A DNA stretch of 44,513 nt. Origin: Actinomycetota bacterium. Its GTDB lineage: Bacteria; Actinomycetota; Actinomycetes; Mycobacteriales; JACQDL01. Under the pieces are notes generated by a model, which ran no database searches, was not told where the DNA came from, and worked only from the letters and a program-made list of their open reading frames with translations. The stretch covers positions 1 through 44,513 of the forward strand of contig JACQDL010000037.1 of the NCBI GenBank assembly GCA_016201065.1, given 5' to 3'. Positions 4,429 through 15,827 of this stretch are shown one piece after another (position 1 is the first letter of the stretch; the number at the start of each line of letters is the position of its first letter). A program made the position numbers and the translations under genes.

Positions 4429-4630
4429 TCAGAACTCGTATCCATGCTCGATCCAACAGCGCCAGTCCTCGATCGCCTGACGGGTCTCCTCGTCAATGTC
4501 GCCACGAGGGTCGAGTTGCGCTGGGGACCACACAACGTGCGCGCCAAGGCTAGACGATGGTGTCCTGGAGGTAGTAGTACCAGCCCATGGCCCGCTCCCC
4601 GCTGTCGTAGGCGTCGACAACGATCTCCAT
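4429..4630 (-). pseudogene. Remnant of a CcbP-like calcium-binding protein gene
   Basis: From the ATG at 4,630 one frame reads MEIVVDAYDSGERAMGWYYY followed by LQDTI and a stop. A second frame just downstream (about 4,540-4,429) reads LDPRGDIDEETRQAIEDWRC followed by WIEHGYEF and a stop. These look like the beginning and end of the same family, the small CcbP-like calcium-binding proteins that share an AMGWYYYLED start and an acidic DW..W...GY end. About 45 central residues are missing and the two halves are out of frame. Intact members have about 110-120 residues; here about 60 remain. Assignment is by remembered motif. Confidence 0.55.
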
Positions 4631-4852: not shown

Positions 4853-5900
4853 ATGAAGCATCCACGACACGACCGCCCGCTCGGGCTCGGGGAGTTCCTG
4901 TACACCCTGGAAGCACAGCTGGCTTCGCTCACCAGTGCCGAGATCACGGCCGCACTCCTGGTCCACGCCCAGCGGCTCCCGGCCCCCGATCGTCTCGGAT
5001 TCCTCGGCATCTTCACCGAGGCACCCCCGCACCGCCCCACGGCAGAGCACACGGCGAGCACCCTCCTGAGACATTCCTGCCGGACTGGATCGACGCCCTG
5101 ACCGACGCCGGCCGGCTCGCGGACCTACTCAACCGCCTCGGGGACCCGTCCTCGGCCGTCGAAGCCCGACGGGACGCCTCGCGGTGCACACCCACCCGCC
5201 GCCGCTTGCTGGCCCTCGTTGAGGCGGGCGAGGCTGCGGGTTGCCTCACCGAGACCCTCACCGCCGAGGCCGGGCAGATCGGACCGGACCCGGATCGCCT
5301 GGCCTGCGGACTCCTCCTGCTCGCCGGGCAGGTTGATCAGGCGGCAGCCGCGCTGGCCGGGGCTGCTCTGGTGGGTTGGTCCCGACCGCTGCATCCCGGC
5401 CCGGTCGTCCTGCCGTACCTGCTGGTGGCCGCCACGGGAGCCGCGCCCCCAGCAGCCGGGTCCAGTTCCTTGGGTGCGGCCTTCGCTGCGATTGACACGG
5501 CCCTCCACCAGCCGTACCACCTCGGGTCGGACAGCGACGACCTGGCGAACTGCCACCTCATTGACGACCTGCACGACTTCGACGAGCAGGACGACGCAAC
5601 CCGGCCCGATGCGGCTCCGGCGGACACCGTGGTCGCCCGCCTGACCCGGCAGATCACCGAGTCCGGCGTGCCCGAGCAACGACGTCGCCAGTGGCTGTCC
5701 GTCGCCGGGACCGCCGTCGAGAACCGGGTCGACGCGATCGTCAGCAGCAAGCACCGCCGTGCGTACGAGCGGGCGGCGGCCCTGGCTGTCGCCTACACCG
5801 AGGCCCTGGTCGCCACCGGCACCAGCCCACGACGGGCCTACCTCACCGGCATCCGGGTGAGATACCCCCGCCACTCCGCGTTCCGCGCCGAAGCGGACCA
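4853..5900 (+). pseudogene. Broken conserved hypothetical gene (TPR-like), 5' end frameshifted from 3' part
   Basis: A credible start (ATG at 4,853, preceded by GGAAGG) opens a frame reading LGEFLYTLEAQLASLTSAEI and then HAQRLPAPDRLGFLGIFTEA, which stops at 5,101. From about 5,060 the coherent protein continues in a different frame: TFLPDWIDALTDAGR, then helical segments (RLACGLLLLAGQVDQAAAAL, AYERAAALAVAYTEALVATG) and an end near RVRYPRHSAFRAEAD (about 5,890). In the related proteins I recall, roughly 200 residues separate the two parts, so a deletion as well as a frameshift is likely. The downstream frame has no stop before the next gene and runs into jetA. Function unknown. Confidence 0.55.
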
Positions 5901-6039: not shown

Positions 6040-7674
6040 ATGGCCGATTCTGGTGACCCGGCGCGGACGGACCGTGCCGCTGTCGTGTCGCCGGCCGCCG
6101 ACGCGACGACGCGTGGTCGCTGGCGGGCACTGGTGCTCACCGACCCGGTCGCGCGACTCGTCCGCAACGCCGTCCACGCCGACGTGGACGGCGACACCTA
6201 CGACCTCCGGCAGCTCGCGCTCGCCGCGATCGACCTGGTCGTCGCGTCGATGGGGTTCGCCCGGGAGGCGACGCTCGATGAGGTCGTCGACACGCTCACT
6301 GGTGTGGCCGCCCGGATGCAACCGGCGGAGGAGCACGCGCACCAGTGGCGTGACGTCGCGCAGGTGGTCGTGAAGGGGCTCCTGAACGACGCCCACCTTC
6401 AGCGCACGTTCAGCTACGCCTTCGCCGACCTCGCCGACCTCGCCGACCCGGACGCGGTCCGCTGGGAGCCCTACGACTTCCGGTTGTTGTCGCTGCGCGA
6501 CACCGAGTACGGACCCGTCCTCGTCGCCAGCGACCAGGCAGTGCTGCTGTACCTGCACGGGCTGGACGTCGACATCGAGGACGCCGACGCCGCGCTGGCA
6601 CATGTGCTGCAACGACAGCTCGACGACCGCCGTTTCGACGCCGCAGTCGGCACGGCCACCCAGGCGGAGCGGACGAGCATCGCGATGTCGGCGCAACTGG
6701 CGGACCTGCTGGAGGCGACCAACCGTGACGTGCGCAGCCACGACTGGCTCGTTGACGTCCCCGGCCGACTGGAACGCGCCCGCCGGCACGTACACCACCG
6801 CATCGGCGAGGACGACCACTTCCTCGACCACGTGCAGGCCGGCCTCGACGCCGGCACCTCCGCGGCGGTGCGGGCGGCGTCCGGGCAGATCGTGGACCTG
6901 CTGCAGCGCGCGAAGCAGGTCCACCTGGACCTCGAGCGGCGGCTTATCGGCGCCCGCCAGGTGTTCCTCTCCGCGCAGGTCCGCCAGCGGCTCGCGCCGC
7001 GGCGCCGGCTGCGGCTGCTCGCCATGGGCGCGGAGTTGTTCGTGCCGACGCTCGCGCTCCCGGCCGGCGCCGCGACGGCGGTGGTGGACCGGTTCGCCGA
7101 GCACGCGCTTGGCGTGTCGGTGCCGCGCCTGATCAGGTTCGACGACGTGCTCGACACACTGTGGGCGCCACCTCGGGTCCGGGAGGCGCCCGACGCCACC
7201 GCCGAGGACCCCGGCGACGACACCGACACCGGCGACATCCAGCGGTACGCCGAGGCGGTCCTTCGGGCCGCCCGCGACATCGTCCGGGTCACTCGAACCG
7301 CGCCGGTGCGGTTGTCGACGCTCCTCGACGCCGCCGCCACGGTCGACCCGGCCGCCGTCGAGGGCGCCGTCGACGACGTGATCGAACTGGTTCTGCTATC
7401 CAGTCTGTGGGCGTTCGCCCCCGACGTCACCGATGAGGAGATCAGCAGCCAGGTCGATCTGCTCGCCTCCGGCCTCCGCGCCGTCGACGACGGCACGCCG
7501 ATGCGGCGCCACGGTGCCGACGGCACGGACGGTACCGGCGCCACGGACAGCGTCCGGGGCGTCAGCGGCATCTGGGGCGCCGACCTCCTCGTGACCGCGG
7601 CGGCCACCGACCCGACGAGTGACCCGGCCGGCGGGACGACGACCGGGACGACCGGTGACGGGCGCCCCCGATGA
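6040..7674 (+). CDS. Wadjet/Mks-like kleisin-type subunit (JetA candidate, 544 aa)
   Basis: First gene of a four-gene overlapping operon. The ATG at 6,040 follows a G-rich GGTGGGGGCG. The frame is open far upstream, but that part belongs to a relic, and 544 residues fits the roughly 500-residue JetA/MksF (MukF-like) subunits that link the SMC ATPase heads. Residues about 25-120 look like winged-helix modules (YDLRQLALAAIDLVVASMGF, VARMQPAEEHAHQW-type helices). The middle is long-helical with an Arg-rich stretch (QVRQRLAPRRRLRLLAMGAE), and residues about 420-500 are again helical. The last 50 residues are Gly/Thr/Asp-rich and probably disordered. It ends in a 4-base ATGA overlap with the next gene. 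Assignment rests mainly on operon context, since I see no diagnostic motif. Role: subunit of an SMC complex acting on DNA, probably in plasmid defence. Confidence 0.6.
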   Translation: MADSGDPARTDRAAVVSPAADATTRGRWRALVLTDPVARLVRNAVHADVDGDTYDLRQLALAAIDLVVASMGFAREATLDEVVDTLTGVAARMQPAEEHAHQWRDVAQVVVKGLLNDAHLQRTFSYAFADLADLADPDAVRWEPYDFRLLSLRDTEYGPVLVASDQAVLLYLHGLDVDIEDADAALAHVLQRQLDDRRFDAAVGTATQAERTSIAMSAQLADLLEATNRDVRSHDWLVDVPGRLERARRHVHHRIGEDDHFLDHVQAGLDAGTSAAVRAASGQIVDLLQRAKQVHLDLERRLIGARQVFLSAQVRQRLAPRRRLRLLAMGAELFVPTLALPAGAATAVVDRFAEHALGVSVPRLIRFDDVLDTLWAPPRVREAPDATAEDPGDDTDTGDIQRYAEAVLRAARDIVRVTRTAPVRLSTLLDAAATVDPAAVEGAVDDVIELVLLSSLWAFAPDVTDEEISSQVDLLASGLRAVDDGTPMRRHGADGTDGTGATDSVRGVSGIWGADLLVTAAATDPTSDPAGGTTTGTTGDGRPR

Positions 7675-8396
7675 CCAGCCCCGCCGCCGACCTGACCGCC
7701 GTGCGCGCGGCCAGCGAACTGCTGGCGTTCGGCCTCTCCCGGACCCAGCGACCCCTCGACGGCAGCGACTACCACCGGCTACTCGACCGCTACCGCACCG
7801 ACCTCGGGTTCCGGGACACCGTCGACACGATCGCCGAGGGCCTCGGCCTCGACGTGATCGGGACGCCGCGCACCGGGCTGGTGCTCGTGCCGGACCCGAG
7901 CGGGCCATTCGCCACCCGGCTGGCCGACCTCAGACCCGGGATGCCCGCGGAGGACAAGCTCGTCGCCGGGCTGGTCCTGCTGGCGCTCGCGGCGTACGCC
8001 TACCCGAACGAGGTGGACCTCGACGACACCGAGACCAAGCTCGTCAACGTCGTGAAGGTCGACGAGTTCATCCGCGCCGCCATCGGCGGCCTGTCCGAGC
8101 TGGACGGACCGGACGGCTCCGCCGGGGAGCGGGCCCGCACCGCGGCGGCGACGTACGCGAACCTGCCGTCGCTGCGTACCACCCCGACCGGACGCCGCGC
8201 CGTCGGATGCACGCTCAAGCACATCGAGATCGTCTGTGACTGGCTCGTCGAGCAGGGCGCCGCGCGGGAGGCCCGGGCACTCGGCGCGGACACGTTCCAG
8301 CTCACCGACCGGTTTCGCCTGCTCGTGGCCGACTCCGCCGGATCGGCTGCCCTGGCGGCGCTGCGTGAGGCCCGCCGCACCCAGATCACGCCATGA
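7671..8396 (+). CDS. Wadjet/Mks-like MukE-type subunit (JetB candidate, 241 aa)
   Basis: The ATG overlaps the stop of jetA (ATGA), and its own stop overlaps the start of the SMC gene in the same way, which implies translational coupling and fixed stoichiometry. Length and character fit JetB/MksE (MukE-like) proteins: an N-terminal helical part (AVRAASELLAFGLSRTQ), a hydrophobic helix (LVAGLVLLALAAYAYP, about residues 102-117) and a C-terminal winged-helix-like region (TLKHIEIVCDWLVEQGAARE with ADTFQLTDRFRLLVAD). These proteins bind the kleisin and DNA in known complexes. No catalytic motif is expected or seen. Sequence alone would not identify the family; the setting between a kleisin-like and an SMC-like gene does. 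Confidence 0.6.
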   Translation: MTSPAADLTAVRAASELLAFGLSRTQRPLDGSDYHRLLDRYRTDLGFRDTVDTIAEGLGLDVIGTPRTGLVLVPDPSGPFATRLADLRPGMPAEDKLVAGLVLLALAAYAYPNEVDLDDTETKLVNVVKVDEFIRAAIGGLSELDGPDGSAGERARTAAATYANLPSLRTTPTGRRAVGCTLKHIEIVCDWLVEQGAAREARALGADTFQLTDRFRLLVADSAGSAALAALREARRTQITP

Positions 8397-11300
8397 GGAA
8401 CGTCATGTGGCAGATCCGCCGCCTCCGGCTCGACCGGATCGGCGCGCCAGCCGCCAGGTTCTTCGACGTCACCATCGACCTGTCCGGCACGGATGGGCAT
8501 CCGCTCGACTCGATCCTGTGGCTGCGCAACGGTGGTGGGAAGTCAAGCGTGCTCTCGCTGGTGTGCGCGGTGATCCGCCCCCACCGCCGGGAATTCCTCG
8601 CCATGTCCGCGACCGGCAAGCACGTCGAGGACTACGTCCTGGGCCCCGACACCGCACACGTCATCATCGAGTGGTCCGGCCCGTCGGGCCGCCGGCTGGT
8701 GACCGGCGCCGTCTACGAATGGGCCGACCGGACCCAACCGGCGGACCCCAACCGTGACCACGACAAGCTGCAGTCCCGCTGGTACGCCTTCACCCCGGTG
8801 CCCGACCGCGCCGATTTCGACCTGCTGCCGTTCGACCAGGCCACCCCACTGCCGCTGAAGGAGTTCGTCGGCGCCGTTCGCGGGTGGGCCGCCATCCCCG
8901 GCTGCGGCGCGGTCGTCGCCGACAACCAGGACCGGTGGAGCCGGGTCCTCGACGACCACGGCCTCGACCCGGAGCTGTTCACCTCGATCCTCCAGATGAA
9001 CGCCACCGAGGGCGGCATCGAGGGACAGTTCCAGTTCCGCAACACCGACGCGTTCGTGCGGTACCTGCTCGAACTGACCGTCGAGCCCGAGGTGCCGCGG
9101 TCCGTGTCGGACATCCTCGAATCGGTGCGTGCCGCACTCGCCGAACGGCCCGCGCTCCACGCCGACCTGGCGTTCGCCGACGAGGCGGTTCCGCTGCTAC
9201 GGAGGCTCGCCTCGGCCCGAGCGAGACACCTCGACGCCGTCGAGCGGCGCACGACCGTCGAGGCGTCCGTACGGGAACTGCGCGACGCCCTCGTGGCGGC
9301 GGCGCAGCGGGCAACCGCCGATCAGGACACACACACGGAGTTCGCACGGATCGCGGGTGAGCGGGCGACGGCCGCACGGCGCGCCGCGGACCTGGCCTAC
9401 AACCGCAGCGTCGAGTTCCGGCGGATTGCGGCCGTCTACCGGCAGCAGGCCGCGCAACGGCGACGCGACACGGCAACCCAGGATCAGAAGGCGTCGCAGG
9501 CGCAGCTCGACGCCTGGCGCGCCGTGCCCCACCTCGCCGCGTGGACGGCGGCCCAGGGCCGGGTCGCCGGGTTGGCGGAGCAACTGGCTGCGCTCACGGC
9601 CGATGCCGAACCGCTGCGGCGGTCCCGTGATGCGGCGTCGGTGGTGTTCGCCACCGCGTTGGACCGGAACATCACCACACTCACCGCCGAACGGGCCGAC
9701 GCGGCGCGCCGGCAACGCGAGGCCACCGAACGGGCCGACGCAGCGAAGCGGCGCCGGAGCGCGCTCGCCGAGGAACGCGGACGGACCCAGTCCCGCCTCG
9801 ACTCACTCACCGAAACCCTCGACGCGCTGCGCGCCGACGTGGACTCCGCCGTCGCCGCCGGGCACCTCAACCCCGGCGAGGACCTCGACACGGCCATTGA
9901 TCGGGTCCGCCGCGACGACAAGGCCGCCGAGGCCCTGCTCGGGCAGGTCGCCGAGCAACGCGCTGGGCTGACCCGGCGCCGGGACACCCTCGCCGACCGG
10001 GAACGTGAGCTGGACGCGGCCCGGACCCGGCTGGAGCACGACCGCAGCCGGACCGCGGAGCGGCAGGAGACGCTCACGGCCCGGGTCACGGACCTGGCCG
10101 GTCGCGAACGGCTGCGAACACTCGCGGAGTCCGACGACGTCGACCCGCTCGCCGAGGGCATCGGCCTGATCGGGCTGCTCGACGAGCAGATCACCCGCGC
10201 CGACCGGCGCCGCGTGGAGATTGCCGTTCAAGGCGCCGAGGACGACCGGGCCACAGCGGCGCTGGCGGCAACGAATCTGCTGCCGCCGGTGCTCGACGTC
10301 GCGTTCGCCCTCGCCGAGTGCGAACGGTCCGATGTGGCAGTCACCAGCGGCTGGTCCTACCTCGCGGACTCGGTGCCCGCACCACTGCGGGCGGCGGTGT
10401 TCGCGGCGGCCCCCGCGCTCGCCGGCGGTGTCCTCGTGTACGACCCCGACCACCTCCCCGTCGCCCAACAACTGCTGACGGCCGCGGCGTCGCGGCCCAC
10501 CTCGGTGGTGGCGGTGGCGACAACAGCCGACTTCCAGGCCGTCGTCGAGGCGGTGGCCGCCGGTCCCGTACCGTCGACGTTCGTCGTGCCCACCGCGCCC
10601 GCGTTGACCGACAAGGCGGCGGCCGGTGCCGAACTGGAGCTGCGTGACACCGCCCGTGTCGCCCGCACCACCGAGGCCGAGGCGCTGGCCAGGCAGTGGG
10701 ACACCGACGACGACCTGCGCCGGGCATTGCGCGCGCTGCTCGCCGACTGCCCGCCCGGAACGCTCGCCCGACTCGCGACGGATCTCGCCGAACTCGACGC
10801 GCGGATCGACCCGGTCGTCGCCGAACTGGCCGGCGTGCCCGCGCAGCGCGCCGACCTCGACGCCGAGGCACCCGACCTCGACGCCGCCGACACCCGCGCG
10901 CAGGCGGTCCGGCGTAGTGCCGCCAGGACGACCGCCGTGCTCACCGCACTGCGGGAACGGCACGCTGCGGCCGGACCGCTGCACGCCGAGGCAGGGACGA
11001 TGCCCGCCGCCATCGCCGGACTCACCGAGACGATCACGAAGGCGGATGCCGACGAAACCGAGGCCCGTGCCGAGGTCGACGTGGCGAAGGCGGACGCGGC
11101 CACCCGTTTGACGCTCATCACCGGGTACGGCACCGAACGCGCGCGCCTCGCCACCGCCACCGCCACCGCCACCGCCACCGACGGCACTGTCACCATCGTG
11201 CTCGACCAGGCACGGCACGAGTGGCAGACCGCCGACGCCGCGTACCGCCGGGAGACGTCGGAGTCGGTTCTCGCCGGACAGATGGAGGAGGCGACACGCG

Positions 11301-12793
11301 CCGTGCTGGCACCGGCCGACGAGGTCGCGAACCTGCCGCCGGAGGTGCGTGCCCGCGCGGAGCAGCTGTTCTCGACCCCCGCCGGCTCGCAGCCGCTGCT
11401 CACCAAGGACGCCATCCGGGCGGCCGACGCGACACTGTCCCGGCGCGGTATGGAACTCACCGCCGCCGGGGTGGAGGCGGAGCTCGCGTCCGCGGAGGTC
11501 GACCAGCACACGCCGGCCGACCGGCGCCGTCGGGCGCAGATCGAGGAGCACGAGACGCCACCGACCCGGGAGGAGGCCCTCGCCGCCGCCGACGCCACCG
11601 AGGAGAACCAACGCGCTCACCTCGACATGGTCAGCACCGCGCAGGAGCATGCCGCCGACGCTGCGGAACGCGGCCGGGATGCGGGCAGCCGCGCGGAGGC
11701 CATGCGTACCGCGGCGCAGCTGCTTGGTGCCACCCGCACCGAAACCGTCGGCGACGACATCACGCCGTACCCCGGCACGGACGAGGCAGCGCGGTCCGCC
11801 GTTGACACGCTGCGGGCCGAGCAGGACGGTGCGCGGACCGGGGAGTCGCAGACGGCCAAAGCGCTCGACACGATCTCCACGGAGCTGGCGTTGTGGGCGA
11901 ACGACGATCGATTCATGCTCGTGAAGTCCGACGTGCGGACCCGGTTCCGGGTCGCCGACGCCGGCAGCGAGCTGGGGCCGGTCGCCGACGATCTCGCCAA
12001 GGACCTCACGATGTACGCGGCGAACCTACGCGGCCAGCTCACCGAACTCGACGAACACAAGAGTGTCGTCGTCACCGCGATCACCGGCATGGTCCGCCAG
12101 GCGTTGCGGACGATCGACCGAGCGCAACGGTTCTCCGAGCTGCCCGAGTCCCTTGGCCCGTGGGCCGGGCAACGATTCCTCGACGTCGGCCCGCGGACCA
12201 GCGTCAACACCTCCGAACCCATCGTCCGGGACCGCTGCGCGCGGCTCGTCGATGTGCTCACCGCCCGGGGAGCGGAGGTACCACGGGGCCTGGACCTGCT
12301 GTGGCAGGCGACCTCCAGTGTCGTCGGGGACGGCAACTGGCGGGCGAGGGTGCTCAAGCCGTCGACGACGTTCGCGCTCGACCGGGTGTCGGTGGAGAAG
12401 ATGCGCAAGTGGTCCGGCGGCGAGAAGGTGACCACCGCGCTGCTGCTGTTCTGCATGGTTGCGAAGCTGCGGGCCCAAAACCGTGGTCGCGAGCTGCCCG
12501 GTCTCGGCGTGCTGCCGCTGGACAACCCCCTGGGCAAGGCGAACTACGTCGTGTTCCTCGACCTGCAACGCCGCGTCGCGGCAGCGAACGGCATCCAGTT
12601 GCTGTTCCTCACCGGAGTCGGTGACATGAAGGCCGTCGGCAGGTTCCCGAACATCGTCCGGATGCGCAACGCCGCCCACGGCCCGCGGGAGTACGTCCGG
12701 GTCGGCGAACGCACGCTCACCGTCGACGACCCGGCCGGCATCGTCGACTCGACCCGGGTGTGGCGGGACGACCCGGTGCTGAGGCTGCTGTGA
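8393..12793 (+). CDS. SMC/MukB-like ATPase of a divergent Wadjet system (JetC candidate, 1466 aa)
   Basis: An ATPase of SMC architecture. Walker A is RNGGGKSSVLSLV with Lys50. Long Glu/Ala/Arg-rich helices fill about residues 235-585 and 750-1265 and should form antiparallel coiled-coil arms around a globular hinge-like part (about 590-745). The C-terminal head has an ABC signature KWSGGEK (Ser1341-Lys1345) and a Walker B-like VLPLDNPLGKAN with Asp1377. The residue after that Asp is Asn1378, where SMC, MukB and Rad50 proteins have the catalytic Glu. After it come FLDLQRRVAAANGIQ and LLFLTGV, a D-loop/switch-like region. At 1466 residues it is longer than the JetC proteins I recall from types I-III. 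Expected role: an ATP-driven DNA loop-extruding motor that senses small circular DNA. It overlaps both neighbours by 4 bases. SMC-like nature is clear; the Wadjet assignment rests on the operon. Confidence 0.85.
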   Translation: MRNVMWQIRRLRLDRIGAPAARFFDVTIDLSGTDGHPLDSILWLRNGGGKSSVLSLVCAVIRPHRREFLAMSATGKHVEDYVLGPDTAHVIIEWSGPSGRRLVTGAVYEWADRTQPADPNRDHDKLQSRWYAFTPVPDRADFDLLPFDQATPLPLKEFVGAVRGWAAIPGCGAVVADNQDRWSRVLDDHGLDPELFTSILQMNATEGGIEGQFQFRNTDAFVRYLLELTVEPEVPRSVSDILESVRAALAERPALHADLAFADEAVPLLRRLASARARHLDAVERRTTVEASVRELRDALVAAAQRATADQDTHTEFARIAGERATAARRAADLAYNRSVEFRRIAAVYRQQAAQRRRDTATQDQKASQAQLDAWRAVPHLAAWTAAQGRVAGLAEQLAALTADAEPLRRSRDAASVVFATALDRNITTLTAERADAARRQREATERADAAKRRRSALAEERGRTQSRLDSLTETLDALRADVDSAVAAGHLNPGEDLDTAIDRVRRDDKAAEALLGQVAEQRAGLTRRRDTLADRERELDAARTRLEHDRSRTAERQETLTARVTDLAGRERLRTLAESDDVDPLAEGIGLIGLLDEQITRADRRRVEIAVQGAEDDRATAALAATNLLPPVLDVAFALAECERSDVAVTSGWSYLADSVPAPLRAAVFAAAPALAGGVLVYDPDHLPVAQQLLTAAASRPTSVVAVATTADFQAVVEAVAAGPVPSTFVVPTAPALTDKAAAGAELELRDTARVARTTEAEALARQWDTDDDLRRALRALLADCPPGTLARLATDLAELDARIDPVVAELAGVPAQRADLDAEAPDLDAADTRAQAVRRSAARTTAVLTALRERHAAAGPLHAEAGTMPAAIAGLTETITKADADETEARAEVDVAKADAATRLTLITGYGTERARLATATATATATDGTVTIVLDQARHEWQTADAAYRRETSESVLAGQMEEATRAVLAPADEVANLPPEVRARAEQLFSTPAGSQPLLTKDAIRAADATLSRRGMELTAAGVEAELASAEVDQHTPADRRRRAQIEEHETPPTREEALAAADATEENQRAHLDMVSTAQEHAADAAERGRDAGSRAEAMRTAAQLLGATRTETVGDDITPYPGTDEAARSAVDTLRAEQDGARTGESQTAKALDTISTELALWANDDRFMLVKSDVRTRFRVADAGSELGPVADDLAKDLTMYAANLRGQLTELDEHKSVVVTAITGMVRQALRTIDRAQRFSELPESLGPWAGQRFLDVGPRTSVNTSEPIVRDRCARLVDVLTARGAEVPRGLDLLWQATSSVVGDGNWRARVLKPSTTFALDRVSVEKMRKWSGGEKVTTALLLFCMVAKLRAQNRGRELPGLGVLPLDNPLGKANYVVFLDLQRRVAAANGIQLLFLTGVGDMKAVGRFPNIVRMRNAAHGPREYVRVGERTLTVDDPAGIVDSTRVWRDDPVLRLL
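11151..11180. repeat. Hexanucleotide tandem repeat, CCACCG x5
   Basis: Five exact copies of CCACCG lie in the second coiled-coil arm of the SMC-like gene and encode an Ala-Thr run (ATATATATDG). Copy-number change would add or remove two residues in the arm without a frameshift. Confidence 0.8.
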
Positions 12794-13869
12794 CGACCCC
12801 ACCGGCTGGGGCGGCCGCACCGGGGCTGTCGGCCCTGGCCGCAGCGCTGCACGACGTGGTCGTCACGTCCCGGCGGGTGCGGGTGCCGGTGGAGGACCTG
12901 CGGCGGGTGGCGCTTGCCGCAGACCTGTCACTCGCCGGATCGCCGGACGCCCGGGCGCGGTTGGCCGACGCGATCCGGGAGCTGGAGGCCAGCGGTGCCG
13001 TCACGCTGCCCATCAAGGAGGCCCTCTGGGAACGCGTGCCCCGTCCGGCACTGCCACGGTGGGTGGCCCGGCGCGCCGCCCGACCGGAGGCACCGGCAGC
13101 CTCGGCGGCGGCGTCGGTCAGCTGGCACGCCAGGTTGAGCTGGGTGCCGTCGTTCCTGGCGAACGACCGGCCGAGCGCCGCGGAACGGTCGCTGCTGCGC
13201 GCCGTCAACAGCTTCCTCGGCGCTGGTGGGTCGTCGTTCGTCGTGCCGCTCCGGGAACGATCGCTGCAGCTCACCGGCGACGAGAAGGCGCTGGACACGA
13301 CGAGTCGCGGCCGGTTGTTCGCCACGGGGCGGCTGTCCCTGCGGCTGCTCGCAGCGCGGCGCACGAGCCCGCCCATGGTGCGTCACCGAGTCGGCGCCGG
13401 TCGGGTGACGCTGCTGGTCGAGAACTACGCCACGTACGACTCGCTGTCCACCGCACTGCCGGCCGTCGGTGAGGTGGGTGAGGTGGTCTACAGCGCTGGC
13501 AACACGCTCGGGACTGTGCTCACCGCGCTCGCCGACGTGGGACCGCCGGACGCGTTGGCGTACTTCGGTGATCTCGACGTTCGCGGCCTGGAAATCGCGG
13601 CGGCGGGTGCCCGGCTCGCCACCGAGCTGGGCCTGCCACCACTGGTCCCGGCGGAACGGCTCTACCAACTCCTCCTCCAGCACGGCCGCCCCGCACCCAC
13701 CGGCCCGAAACCCGATGCGGCGAGGGCGCGCGCCGCCTCGGCGTGGCTGCCCGAGTCGCTGCGTGTATCAGTCCTCGACGTGCTCCTCGCCGGCAACCGG
13801 CTCGCCCAAGAGGCAGTCGGCCTGGAGCTGCTGCACAACGAACCCCCACGGACCGTCCGCACCCAGTAG
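12790..13869 (+). CDS. Toprim-type nuclease subunit of the Wadjet-like system (JetD candidate, 359 aa)
   Basis: The GTG start at 12,790 overlaps the SMC stop (GTGA), the third such overlap in the operon. An in-frame ATG 30 nt upstream lies inside the SMC gene and is less likely. The C-terminal half has a toprim/DUF2220-like pattern: LLVENYATYDSL with Glu211, then YFGDLDVRGLEIA with Asp261 and Asp263, the acidic triad that binds metal in topoisomerase VI-like JetD nucleases. The N-terminal 130 residues are helical with a winged-helix look (LADAIRELEASGAVTLPIK) and could match the DNA- or SMC-binding arm (DUF3322-like) of JetD. In Wadjet this subunit cuts circular plasmid DNA. The key acidic residues are present, so it is predicted to be active. 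It ends 3 bp from a convergent gene with no visible terminator between them. Confidence 0.78.
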   Translation: MTTPPAGAAAPGLSALAAALHDVVVTSRRVRVPVEDLRRVALAADLSLAGSPDARARLADAIRELEASGAVTLPIKEALWERVPRPALPRWVARRAARPEAPAASAAASVSWHARLSWVPSFLANDRPSAAERSLLRAVNSFLGAGGSSFVVPLRERSLQLTGDEKALDTTSRGRLFATGRLSLRLLAARRTSPPMVRHRVGAGRVTLLVENYATYDSLSTALPAVGEVGEVVYSAGNTLGTVLTALADVGPPDALAYFGDLDVRGLEIAAAGARLATELGLPPLVPAERLYQLLLQHGRPAPTGPKPDAARARAASAWLPESLRVSVLDVLLAGNRLAQEAVGLELLHNEPPRTVRTQ

Positions 13870-13872
13870 GTG

Positions 13873-15492
13873 TCAGCGCAGGAAGGACAGCGCCTGGTTC
13901 ACCTCGTCAACGTGGAATCCGGCCGGGTTGAACTGCGTGGCGTCGTGCAGCCCCAGCCACTCCAGGCGTTCGGCGTGTTCGGGGTGCTGGGGGTCGGCGA
14001 GTGCCTCCACCAGCTCCTCGTACCCCCAGATGCCGCCACAGTCTTCCGGTGGCGCCGCCCGGCGCCCGCCCGCGCAGCGCGGGTAGACCACCGCGGGGTC
14101 ACGGTCGAGGACCTTCTCCACCACGATGTCGTGCACCCAGTCGTCGCCGAAGTCGTAGGTGTAGCGGATCTTGTCCTTCACCCGGGCGACCACCTGCTCC
14201 AGGGTGACCAGCGCCTCGTCCTGGTGCGCCAACTCCAGCTCCAGGTCCGGCCGACCGAACTCGCCGTACGGCGTATCGAACACATGCAGGTGCCCGCCGC
14301 CCCACCCGAACGCGGACTGAATCGTGTCGTGCAACCGGTCCAGGCCCAGGTCCGCCGGCACCAGCAGCCGCCGCCAGATCGGCGGTTTCGCCCCACGCAG
14401 TCCCACCTTGATCTGATAGATCGGCGCCGGGCCGGCCGGCTTCTTCCGCTTCGCCGGCAACGGAGCCGGCGCAGCCCGACCGAACCGCAGCGCGGCGGGT
14501 CCGCCGCCGAACAACGCACCAGCAGCGCCACCGCCGCCCACGAGGTCCACCAGCATGTCCAGGATGGTCGCCGCGGAGCGGTCGGCGTGGGCATGCCCAC
14601 GCCCATCCGTTGGCCTCCGGGCCGCCGGGAGTGCTGTCATCCGGGAACGGAGCAGCAGGGCCAGTACCTCGTGCGGCGGCGCGTCGTCGTCGTCCTCGTC
14701 GGCCGGGTCCGTCTCGCCGACGAGCCTCTCCTGGTCATGCACGGCCCGCGCGTCCAGGGCCTCCTCGACGTGCCACCGCAACTCGGCCGGGTCAGGCGTC
14801 TCGGTCCTGATGTCCAGGCCGTTCGCCCGACCAGCCTTACGAATGTTGTCCAGCGCCGTGGGCAGACCATCGGTATCGACGAGGAGGATGTCCGCGGCGG
14901 CGCCACAGTCCTGCTCGTCCACGACAACCAGGAACGCGTGCCCACGGGTGGCCCGCCGGAACGGGGCAACCAACACCGACGTCGTTTCCTGGGTGTCGTA
15001 CAGCCGCAGGCAGTCGCCGACCCGCACCGGCTCGGCCAACTCACCGGCCCACCGTGGGGTGGGGATGCCCATGGCCACCATCTGCTCGGCGGCGACCGAC
15101 GCACCCTCGGCCAACTGTTCCTGCACACCAGATGCGGCCGAACCGATCGCCAGCAGCAGAGCCAGCGCCACGCCACTGGGCTCGGCCGTGACCTGTGGAA
15201 TGAACACCCGGACGAAGTCAGTCACGGCCTCGTCCCCGGCGACCTCCACCAGGGGGGCCACGAACGCCGCACCAGCCAGCTCCGCCTCCAGGGCGTCCTC
15301 GTACTCGGCGAGAGCGGCAACACCAGCGAGCAACTCACCGATCATCTGCGCCGGGTCGACATCCTCACCCGAACACCCGGGACAGTCGCACCCCTCCGGC
15401 GCGTCGGGCACCGCGGTCAGGTCCACGCGCCGGGCACCCTTGCTGCTCGGATTGTTCTGCTGACCCAGTCGGTCACGATTGGCAGGACTCAT
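13873..15492 (-). CDS. Plasmid pRiA4b ORF-3-like domain protein with long N-terminal extension (539 aa)
   Basis: Residues about 355-539 match the pRiA4b ORF-3 (PF07929) domain: YQIKVGLRGAKPPIWRRLLV, FGWGGGHLHVFDTPYGEFG, IRYTYDFGDDWVHDIVVEKV, then an acidic end with GIWGYEELVEALADPQHPEH and a FNPAGFHVDEVN tail. The biochemical role of this domain is not known to me. The first 350 residues add a Cys cluster (CDCPGCSG, about residues 36-43), a helical region and a region rich in Asp/Glu, so the protein is larger than simple one-domain members. The ATG at 15,492 was chosen because MSPANRDRL follows it and a CAGACT hexamer lies 6 nt upstream; an upstream GTG at 15,528 gives an unnatural Arg-rich start. 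It converges on the Wadjet-like operon with 3 bp between stops. Confidence 0.8.
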   Translation of the reverse strand: MSPANRDRLGQQNNPSSKGARRVDLTAVPDAPEGCDCPGCSGEDVDPAQMIGELLAGVAALAEYEDALEAELAGAAFVAPLVEVAGDEAVTDFVRVFIPQVTAEPSGVALALLLAIGSAASGVQEQLAEGASVAAEQMVAMGIPTPRWAGELAEPVRVGDCLRLYDTQETTSVLVAPFRRATRGHAFLVVVDEQDCGAAADILLVDTDGLPTALDNIRKAGRANGLDIRTETPDPAELRWHVEEALDARAVHDQERLVGETDPADEDDDDAPPHEVLALLLRSRMTALPAARRPTDGRGHAHADRSAATILDMLVDLVGGGGAAGALFGGGPAALRFGRAAPAPLPAKRKKPAGPAPIYQIKVGLRGAKPPIWRRLLVPADLGLDRLHDTIQSAFGWGGGHLHVFDTPYGEFGRPDLELELAHQDEALVTLEQVVARVKDKIRYTYDFGDDWVHDIVVEKVLDRDPAVVYPRCAGGRRAAPPEDCGGIWGYEELVEALADPQHPEHAERLEWLGLHDATQFNPAGFHVDEVNQALSFLR

Positions 15493-15498
15493 CCGTCT

Positions 15499-15504
15499 AG
15501 TCTG
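15499..15504 (-). promoter_or_regulatory. Candidate -10 (CAGACT) for the pRiA4b-like gene
   Basis: On the minus strand CAGACT is followed by six bases and the ATG at 15,492, the leaderless geometry seen elsewhere in the window. The first base deviates from TANNNT, so this is weaker than the others. Confidence 0.25.
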
Positions 15505-15695
15505 CCGGCCCGCGCCGGCACCTTCCAAACAGATCCACGACAGAGACCGCGACCCGGCCCGCCCGGCCCCACCTACTGGGGTACGACGGCCGGCTGTTCC
15601 GTGCCCCTACGCATCCGGGCCACCATCACCCGGGAGGCCGCCCCCACCCTCGCCGCCACCATCACCACGCTCACCAGCGACCACCCCCACAGACA

Positions 15696-15735: not shown

Positions 15736-15755
15736 CATGGGTGTGATGCTTTGCG

Positions 15756-15827
15756 TGCCCCCGGCAGGATTCGAACCTGCGCACCCGCCTCCGGAGGGCG
15801 ATGCTCTATCCCCTGAGCTACGGGGGC
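15756..15827 (-). tRNA. tRNA-Arg (anticodon CCG)
   Basis: The 72-nt minus-strand sequence folds as a standard cloverleaf: acceptor GCCCCCG pairing with CGGGGGC, D-arm GCTC...GAGC, anticodon loop CTCCGGA with CCG at positions 34-36, and a T-arm GCAGG-TTCGAAT-CCTGC. The discriminator base is A, and 3' CCA is not encoded. It reads CGG codons, which are abundant in this DNA. Its 3' end faces the accessory region, a classic integrase target orientation, although I found no second copy of the 3' end as an att repeat inside the window. Confidence 0.95.

Follow-up and report, generated by a model that had tools for sequence, protein, structure and literature searches.

Wadjet type III is one of the three Wadjet types of Doron et al. 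(2018), and it has been little studied. A 2023 review notes that most work has been done on type I and that types II and III await characterization. In types I and II, the SMC motor extrudes loops of circular DNA, which JetD then cleaves (PMC10586767, PMC12647877).

Within the 44,513-nucleotide stretch of DNA analyzed here (the window), positions 6040–13869 carry the genes jetA-B-C-D, in that order, in one operon (Table 1). We put at about 0.93 the probability that this is a complete and apparently functional type III Wadjet (JetABCD) operon, which by analogy would act through SMC extrusion and JetD cleavage. The first-pass annotation had described four genes of these sizes joined by 4-bp overlaps, and the reading frames agree with it. 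All four frames are intact and lack internal stops, and their codon-position G+C is coding-like in a window with an overall G+C of 71.5%. The overlaps are of the translational-coupling type at every junction (ATGA at jetA/jetB and jetB/jetC, GTGA at jetC/jetD).

Table 1. Coordinates, in the window, of the type III Wadjet genes and of the Walker B codons discussed in the text
Feature	Position	Strand	Product	Basis
jetA3	6040..7674	+	predicted kleisin (MukF-like), 544 aa	PADLOC JetA3 and homologues
jetB3	7671..8396	+	predicted KITE (MukE-like), 241 aa	position between jetA and jetC; homologues
jetC3	8393..12793	+	SMC-family ATPase motor, 1466 aa	PADLOC JetC3 and alignment of 14
Walker B codons D1377-N1378 inside jetC	12521..12526	+		19-locus motif comparison; N1378 = 12524-12526
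jetD3	12790..13869	+	Toprim nuclease subunit, 359 aa	PADLOC JetD3

The 5' limit of jetA required some attention because the frame upstream of it is open, and in frame, back to position 4444. The JetA proteins of the two closest operons that we found, both from Geodermatophilaceae (L002 and L003), align from residue 1 and so start at the corresponding methionine, in support of position 6040 as the beginning of the gene. A 1076-residue fusion of JetA with the upstream frame was rejected on the same grounds. Relatives of the upstream frame were absent from the other genomes of the 148-genome class sample and from the type III loci. Between 4853 and 6039 there is a gene-like frame that starts at 4853, contains a frame shift near 5060 and then runs stop-free and in frame into jetA; it looks like a decayed gene.

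Searching each protein against the PADLOC Wadjet profiles, as had been proposed, identified three of the subunits as type III over much or nearly all of their length. JetA matches JetA3 (PDLC00567) with E = 4e-125 over residues 17–497, JetC matches JetC3 (PDLC00579) with E = 0 and 1335 bits over residues 4–1463 of 1466, and JetD matches JetD3 (PDLC00594) with E = 2.7e-90. No JetC1 or JetC2 model appears among the PADLOC matches of JetC up to E = 1. The two Geodermatophilaceae operons have the same gene order and are similar throughout (tblastn identities of 67–68% for JetA, 71% for JetB, 58% for JetC and 65% for JetD; JetA identities over all comparisons, 67–71%). With full-operon homologues in the same order and PADLOC E-values down to 0, the match lies far beyond chance, and the initial recognition of a Wadjet or MksBEFG-like SMC operon is upheld by the JetA, JetC and JetD profiles together with the conserved synteny.

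The same annotation had gone further and suggested a subtype beyond types I–III. Two observations could be read in this way: JetB is almost without a match to PADLOC JetB3 (PDLC00573; E = 0.011 over 59 residues), and a JetC scan of genome contigs gave just two close relatives. However, the JetB proteins of other type III operons, those of L002 and L049, also escape the JetB3 models, so that the weak score points to a gap in the model set rather than to a new type. JetB itself is identified by its position and by its 71% identity to JetB of the two Geodermatophilaceae operons. Given the near full-length JetA3, JetC3 and JetD3 matches, and because the features cited as odd are standard for type III (see below), we regard a new subtype as highly improbable. 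Judged by sequence, the operon is an ordinary additional type III Wadjet and not a new type. General annotation would label most of it hypothetical because in Pfam only JetD_C is found, on JetD at 21.3 bits, just below the 22-bit cut-off, with nothing else in the operon, and NCBIfam has no match to any of the four proteins.

The Walker A motif (NGGGKSS, residues 46–52) and ABC signature (SGGE, residues 1341–1344) recognized earlier in JetC are both present and kept across its relatives. Neither of the two features that had seemed exceptional sets this protein apart. NGGGK, called unusual, is the type III norm and occurs in 12 of 14 aligned type III JetC proteins, and a length of 1466 residues is normal for the type, as full-length relatives have 1441–1547 residues and the matched full-length JetC3 models have 1451–1486 positions. 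A JetC profile search of the PDB returned coiled coils only.

It is the Walker B motif (LPLDNP, residues 1374–1379, with LDNP at 1376–1379) that distinguishes type III. The residue following the Walker B aspartate, ordinarily the catalytic glutamate, is asparagine in all 14 aligned JetC proteins and in five partial or split ones (L023, L027, L031, L034 and L046), i.e. in 19/19 intact motifs, with the pattern (L/A)DNP; L029, which is disrupted there, was omitted. The loci with Asp-Asn-Pro are L002, L003, L022–L025, L027, L028, L031–L034 and L045–L050, plus that of the window. In contrast, JetC of type I (five loci) and type II (six loci, including the source genome's own) has a DEAF motif, which is absent here. 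A profile–profile alignment superimposes DNP on the DEA of both other types, but its probabilities are low (20% and 2%); the case for equivalence is therefore made chiefly by the local features, namely the signature, a hydrophobic strand and the aspartate. On this comparison, the asparagine is a class-wide property of type III and is not specific to the operon at 6040–13869, and it is the sole point of wider interest at this locus.

An asparagine at this site need not mean a dead enzyme. The ATPase DndD has a threonine at the corresponding position. Most Lamassu LmuB proteins naturally have glutamine at the position of the Walker B glutamate (PMC10586767). For MksB of C. glutamicum, a type I protein, an E1042Q substitution at this position impairs ATPase activity (PMC10123090), and type I kinetics may therefore not carry over to a motor with asparagine at this site. 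We tentatively suggest, as a possibility we consider less likely than not, that a type III motor without the usual catalytic glutamate might hydrolyze ATP slowly, serving as a clamp or timer and not as a fast extruder, or might employ a substitute residue, for which E93 and E206, invariant acids of the JetC N-terminal head, are candidates. If so, the DNA-sensing cycle of type III would differ from those of types I and II; the invariant Asp-Asn-Pro gives a testable prediction of how, or how fast, the type III motor uses ATP. The literature searched, which covered few subscription papers, contains no discussion of this asparagine, and its novelty is accordingly unproven.

The Toprim acids of JetD, E211, D261 and D263, are all present. 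Across 17 relatives the two aspartates never vary and 16 retain E211, in agreement with the acidic triad that had been proposed for the fourth gene. In profile comparisons, E211 aligns with the mutated residue of JetD(E248A) in 8q72 and with its equivalent in MksG (8b7f), with weak E-values of 0.46–0.59. JetA and JetB would be expected to adopt kleisin and KITE folds, respectively. A PDB profile search with JetB found nothing, and AlphaFold2 modelling from three-sequence alignments reached mean pLDDT values of 39 for JetA and 48 for JetB, so that these models were not used.

By analogy to types I and II, JetC dimers would combine with JetA, as kleisin, and JetB, as KITE protein, into an SMC motor that uses ATP to load onto DNA and extrude it. 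If the substrate is a small circle, extrusion would run to completion and the motor halves would meet, an encounter that would activate the Toprim nuclease JetD to cut the DNA. We infer that complex formation, extrusion and cutting by these four proteins would protect the cell from plasmids: small plasmids would be lost, and linear or very large DNA would be spared.

The surroundings of the operon bear on this proposed role. A tRNA-Arg(CCG) gene at 15755–15827 on the minus strand marks the boundary between a variable region on the left of the window, which holds the operon, and a conserved core that runs through argS, lysA, hom, thrC, thrB, rho, prfA and prmC to the ATP synthase genes. No repeat of at least 16 bases that duplicates the end of the tRNA gene, as an integration repeat would, was found in the window. 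Convergent with jetD, positions 13873–15528 on the minus strand encode a protein of 551 residues whose C-terminal domain is plasmid pRiA4b ORF-3-like (Pfam E = 3.5e-60). Farther left, the end of a frame at 586–1152 on the minus strand resembles by eye an ISAs1-type transposase, with no Pfam match, which suggests an insertion-sequence remnant.

Judged by JetD, relatives are sparse. A search with JetD matched 6/296 genomes of the phylum sample and 12/395 of the class sample, the source genome included, and no further relative turned up among the genomes sampled from the order, a pattern that suggests horizontal acquisition of the operon. Among viral contigs, profile searches for JetC and JetD gave no relatives. 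More distant type III operons, complete or partial, occur in other actinobacterial genomes, and further examples occur in plasmid-collection records from Streptomyces, Rhodococcus, Polaromonas, Microvirga, E. coli and Salmonella. Identities to other type III operons are 24–30% for JetA, among the further operons, and 22–36% for JetB. Three of these loci have peculiarities of their own. The JetC of a Salmonella plasmid (L046:3081-7507) is annotated as two overlapping ORFs and is apparently split by a frameshift. An actinobacterial relative (L029:9956-11424) has JetD and a JetC frame that is apparently broken around Walker B. In the plasmid operon of Streptomyces sp. NBC_01166, a gene for a "3'-5' exonuclease" (L049:12699-13553) overlaps the end of jetD; it is absent from the window.

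This patchy JetD distribution and the location in a variable region beside a tRNA gene fit a defense gene better than a housekeeping gene. They weigh against a role in which restriction has been lost and the proteins act as a chromosome-organization or DNA-repair SMC complex of the MksBEF kind, with JetD as a passenger. Such a role could draw on the Walker B asparagine, which could slow the ATPase, and on the fact that some MksBEF complexes without JetD organize chromosomes (PMC10586767), but here JetD is present and intact and retains its Toprim acids. We consider it very unlikely, and favor a type III Wadjet defense operon.

The source genome (3.65 Mb, 65 contigs) contains one JetC3 and a second Wadjet, of type II, around 53–58 kb on another contig (C13, 53699–57751; L063), where the profile matches are JetB2 (E = 1e-165), JetC2 (E = 0) and JetD2 (E = 2.7e-111). 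The operon adds a further example of type III Wadjet, and its genome has type II as well. Its likeness to described type III systems extends to gene order, subunit lengths, the NGGGK Walker A, the LDNP Walker B and the JetD Toprim domain, and the only difference found is a JetB too divergent for the JetB3 models, as in its relatives. With type II, represented by the genome's second system and by Neobacillus vireti, it has in common a JetC-class SMC ATPase and a JetD Toprim nuclease, but the two belong to separate profile families and differ at Walker B (DEAF in type II, DNP here). The overall architecture and the JetD Glu and DxD residues are likewise common to type I, or MksBEFG, of C. glutamicum, E. 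coli GF4-3 and P. aeruginosa PA14, whereas type I JetC has about 1100–1300 residues and an IDEAFGRG Walker B with the catalytic glutamate. Lamassu LmuB resembles JetC as an SMC-like ATPase that naturally has another residue in place of the Walker B glutamate (glutamine in LmuB; PMC10586767). However, LmuB is a short Rad50-like protein of another system, whereas JetC has asparagine and is encoded with JetA, JetB and JetD as its partners.
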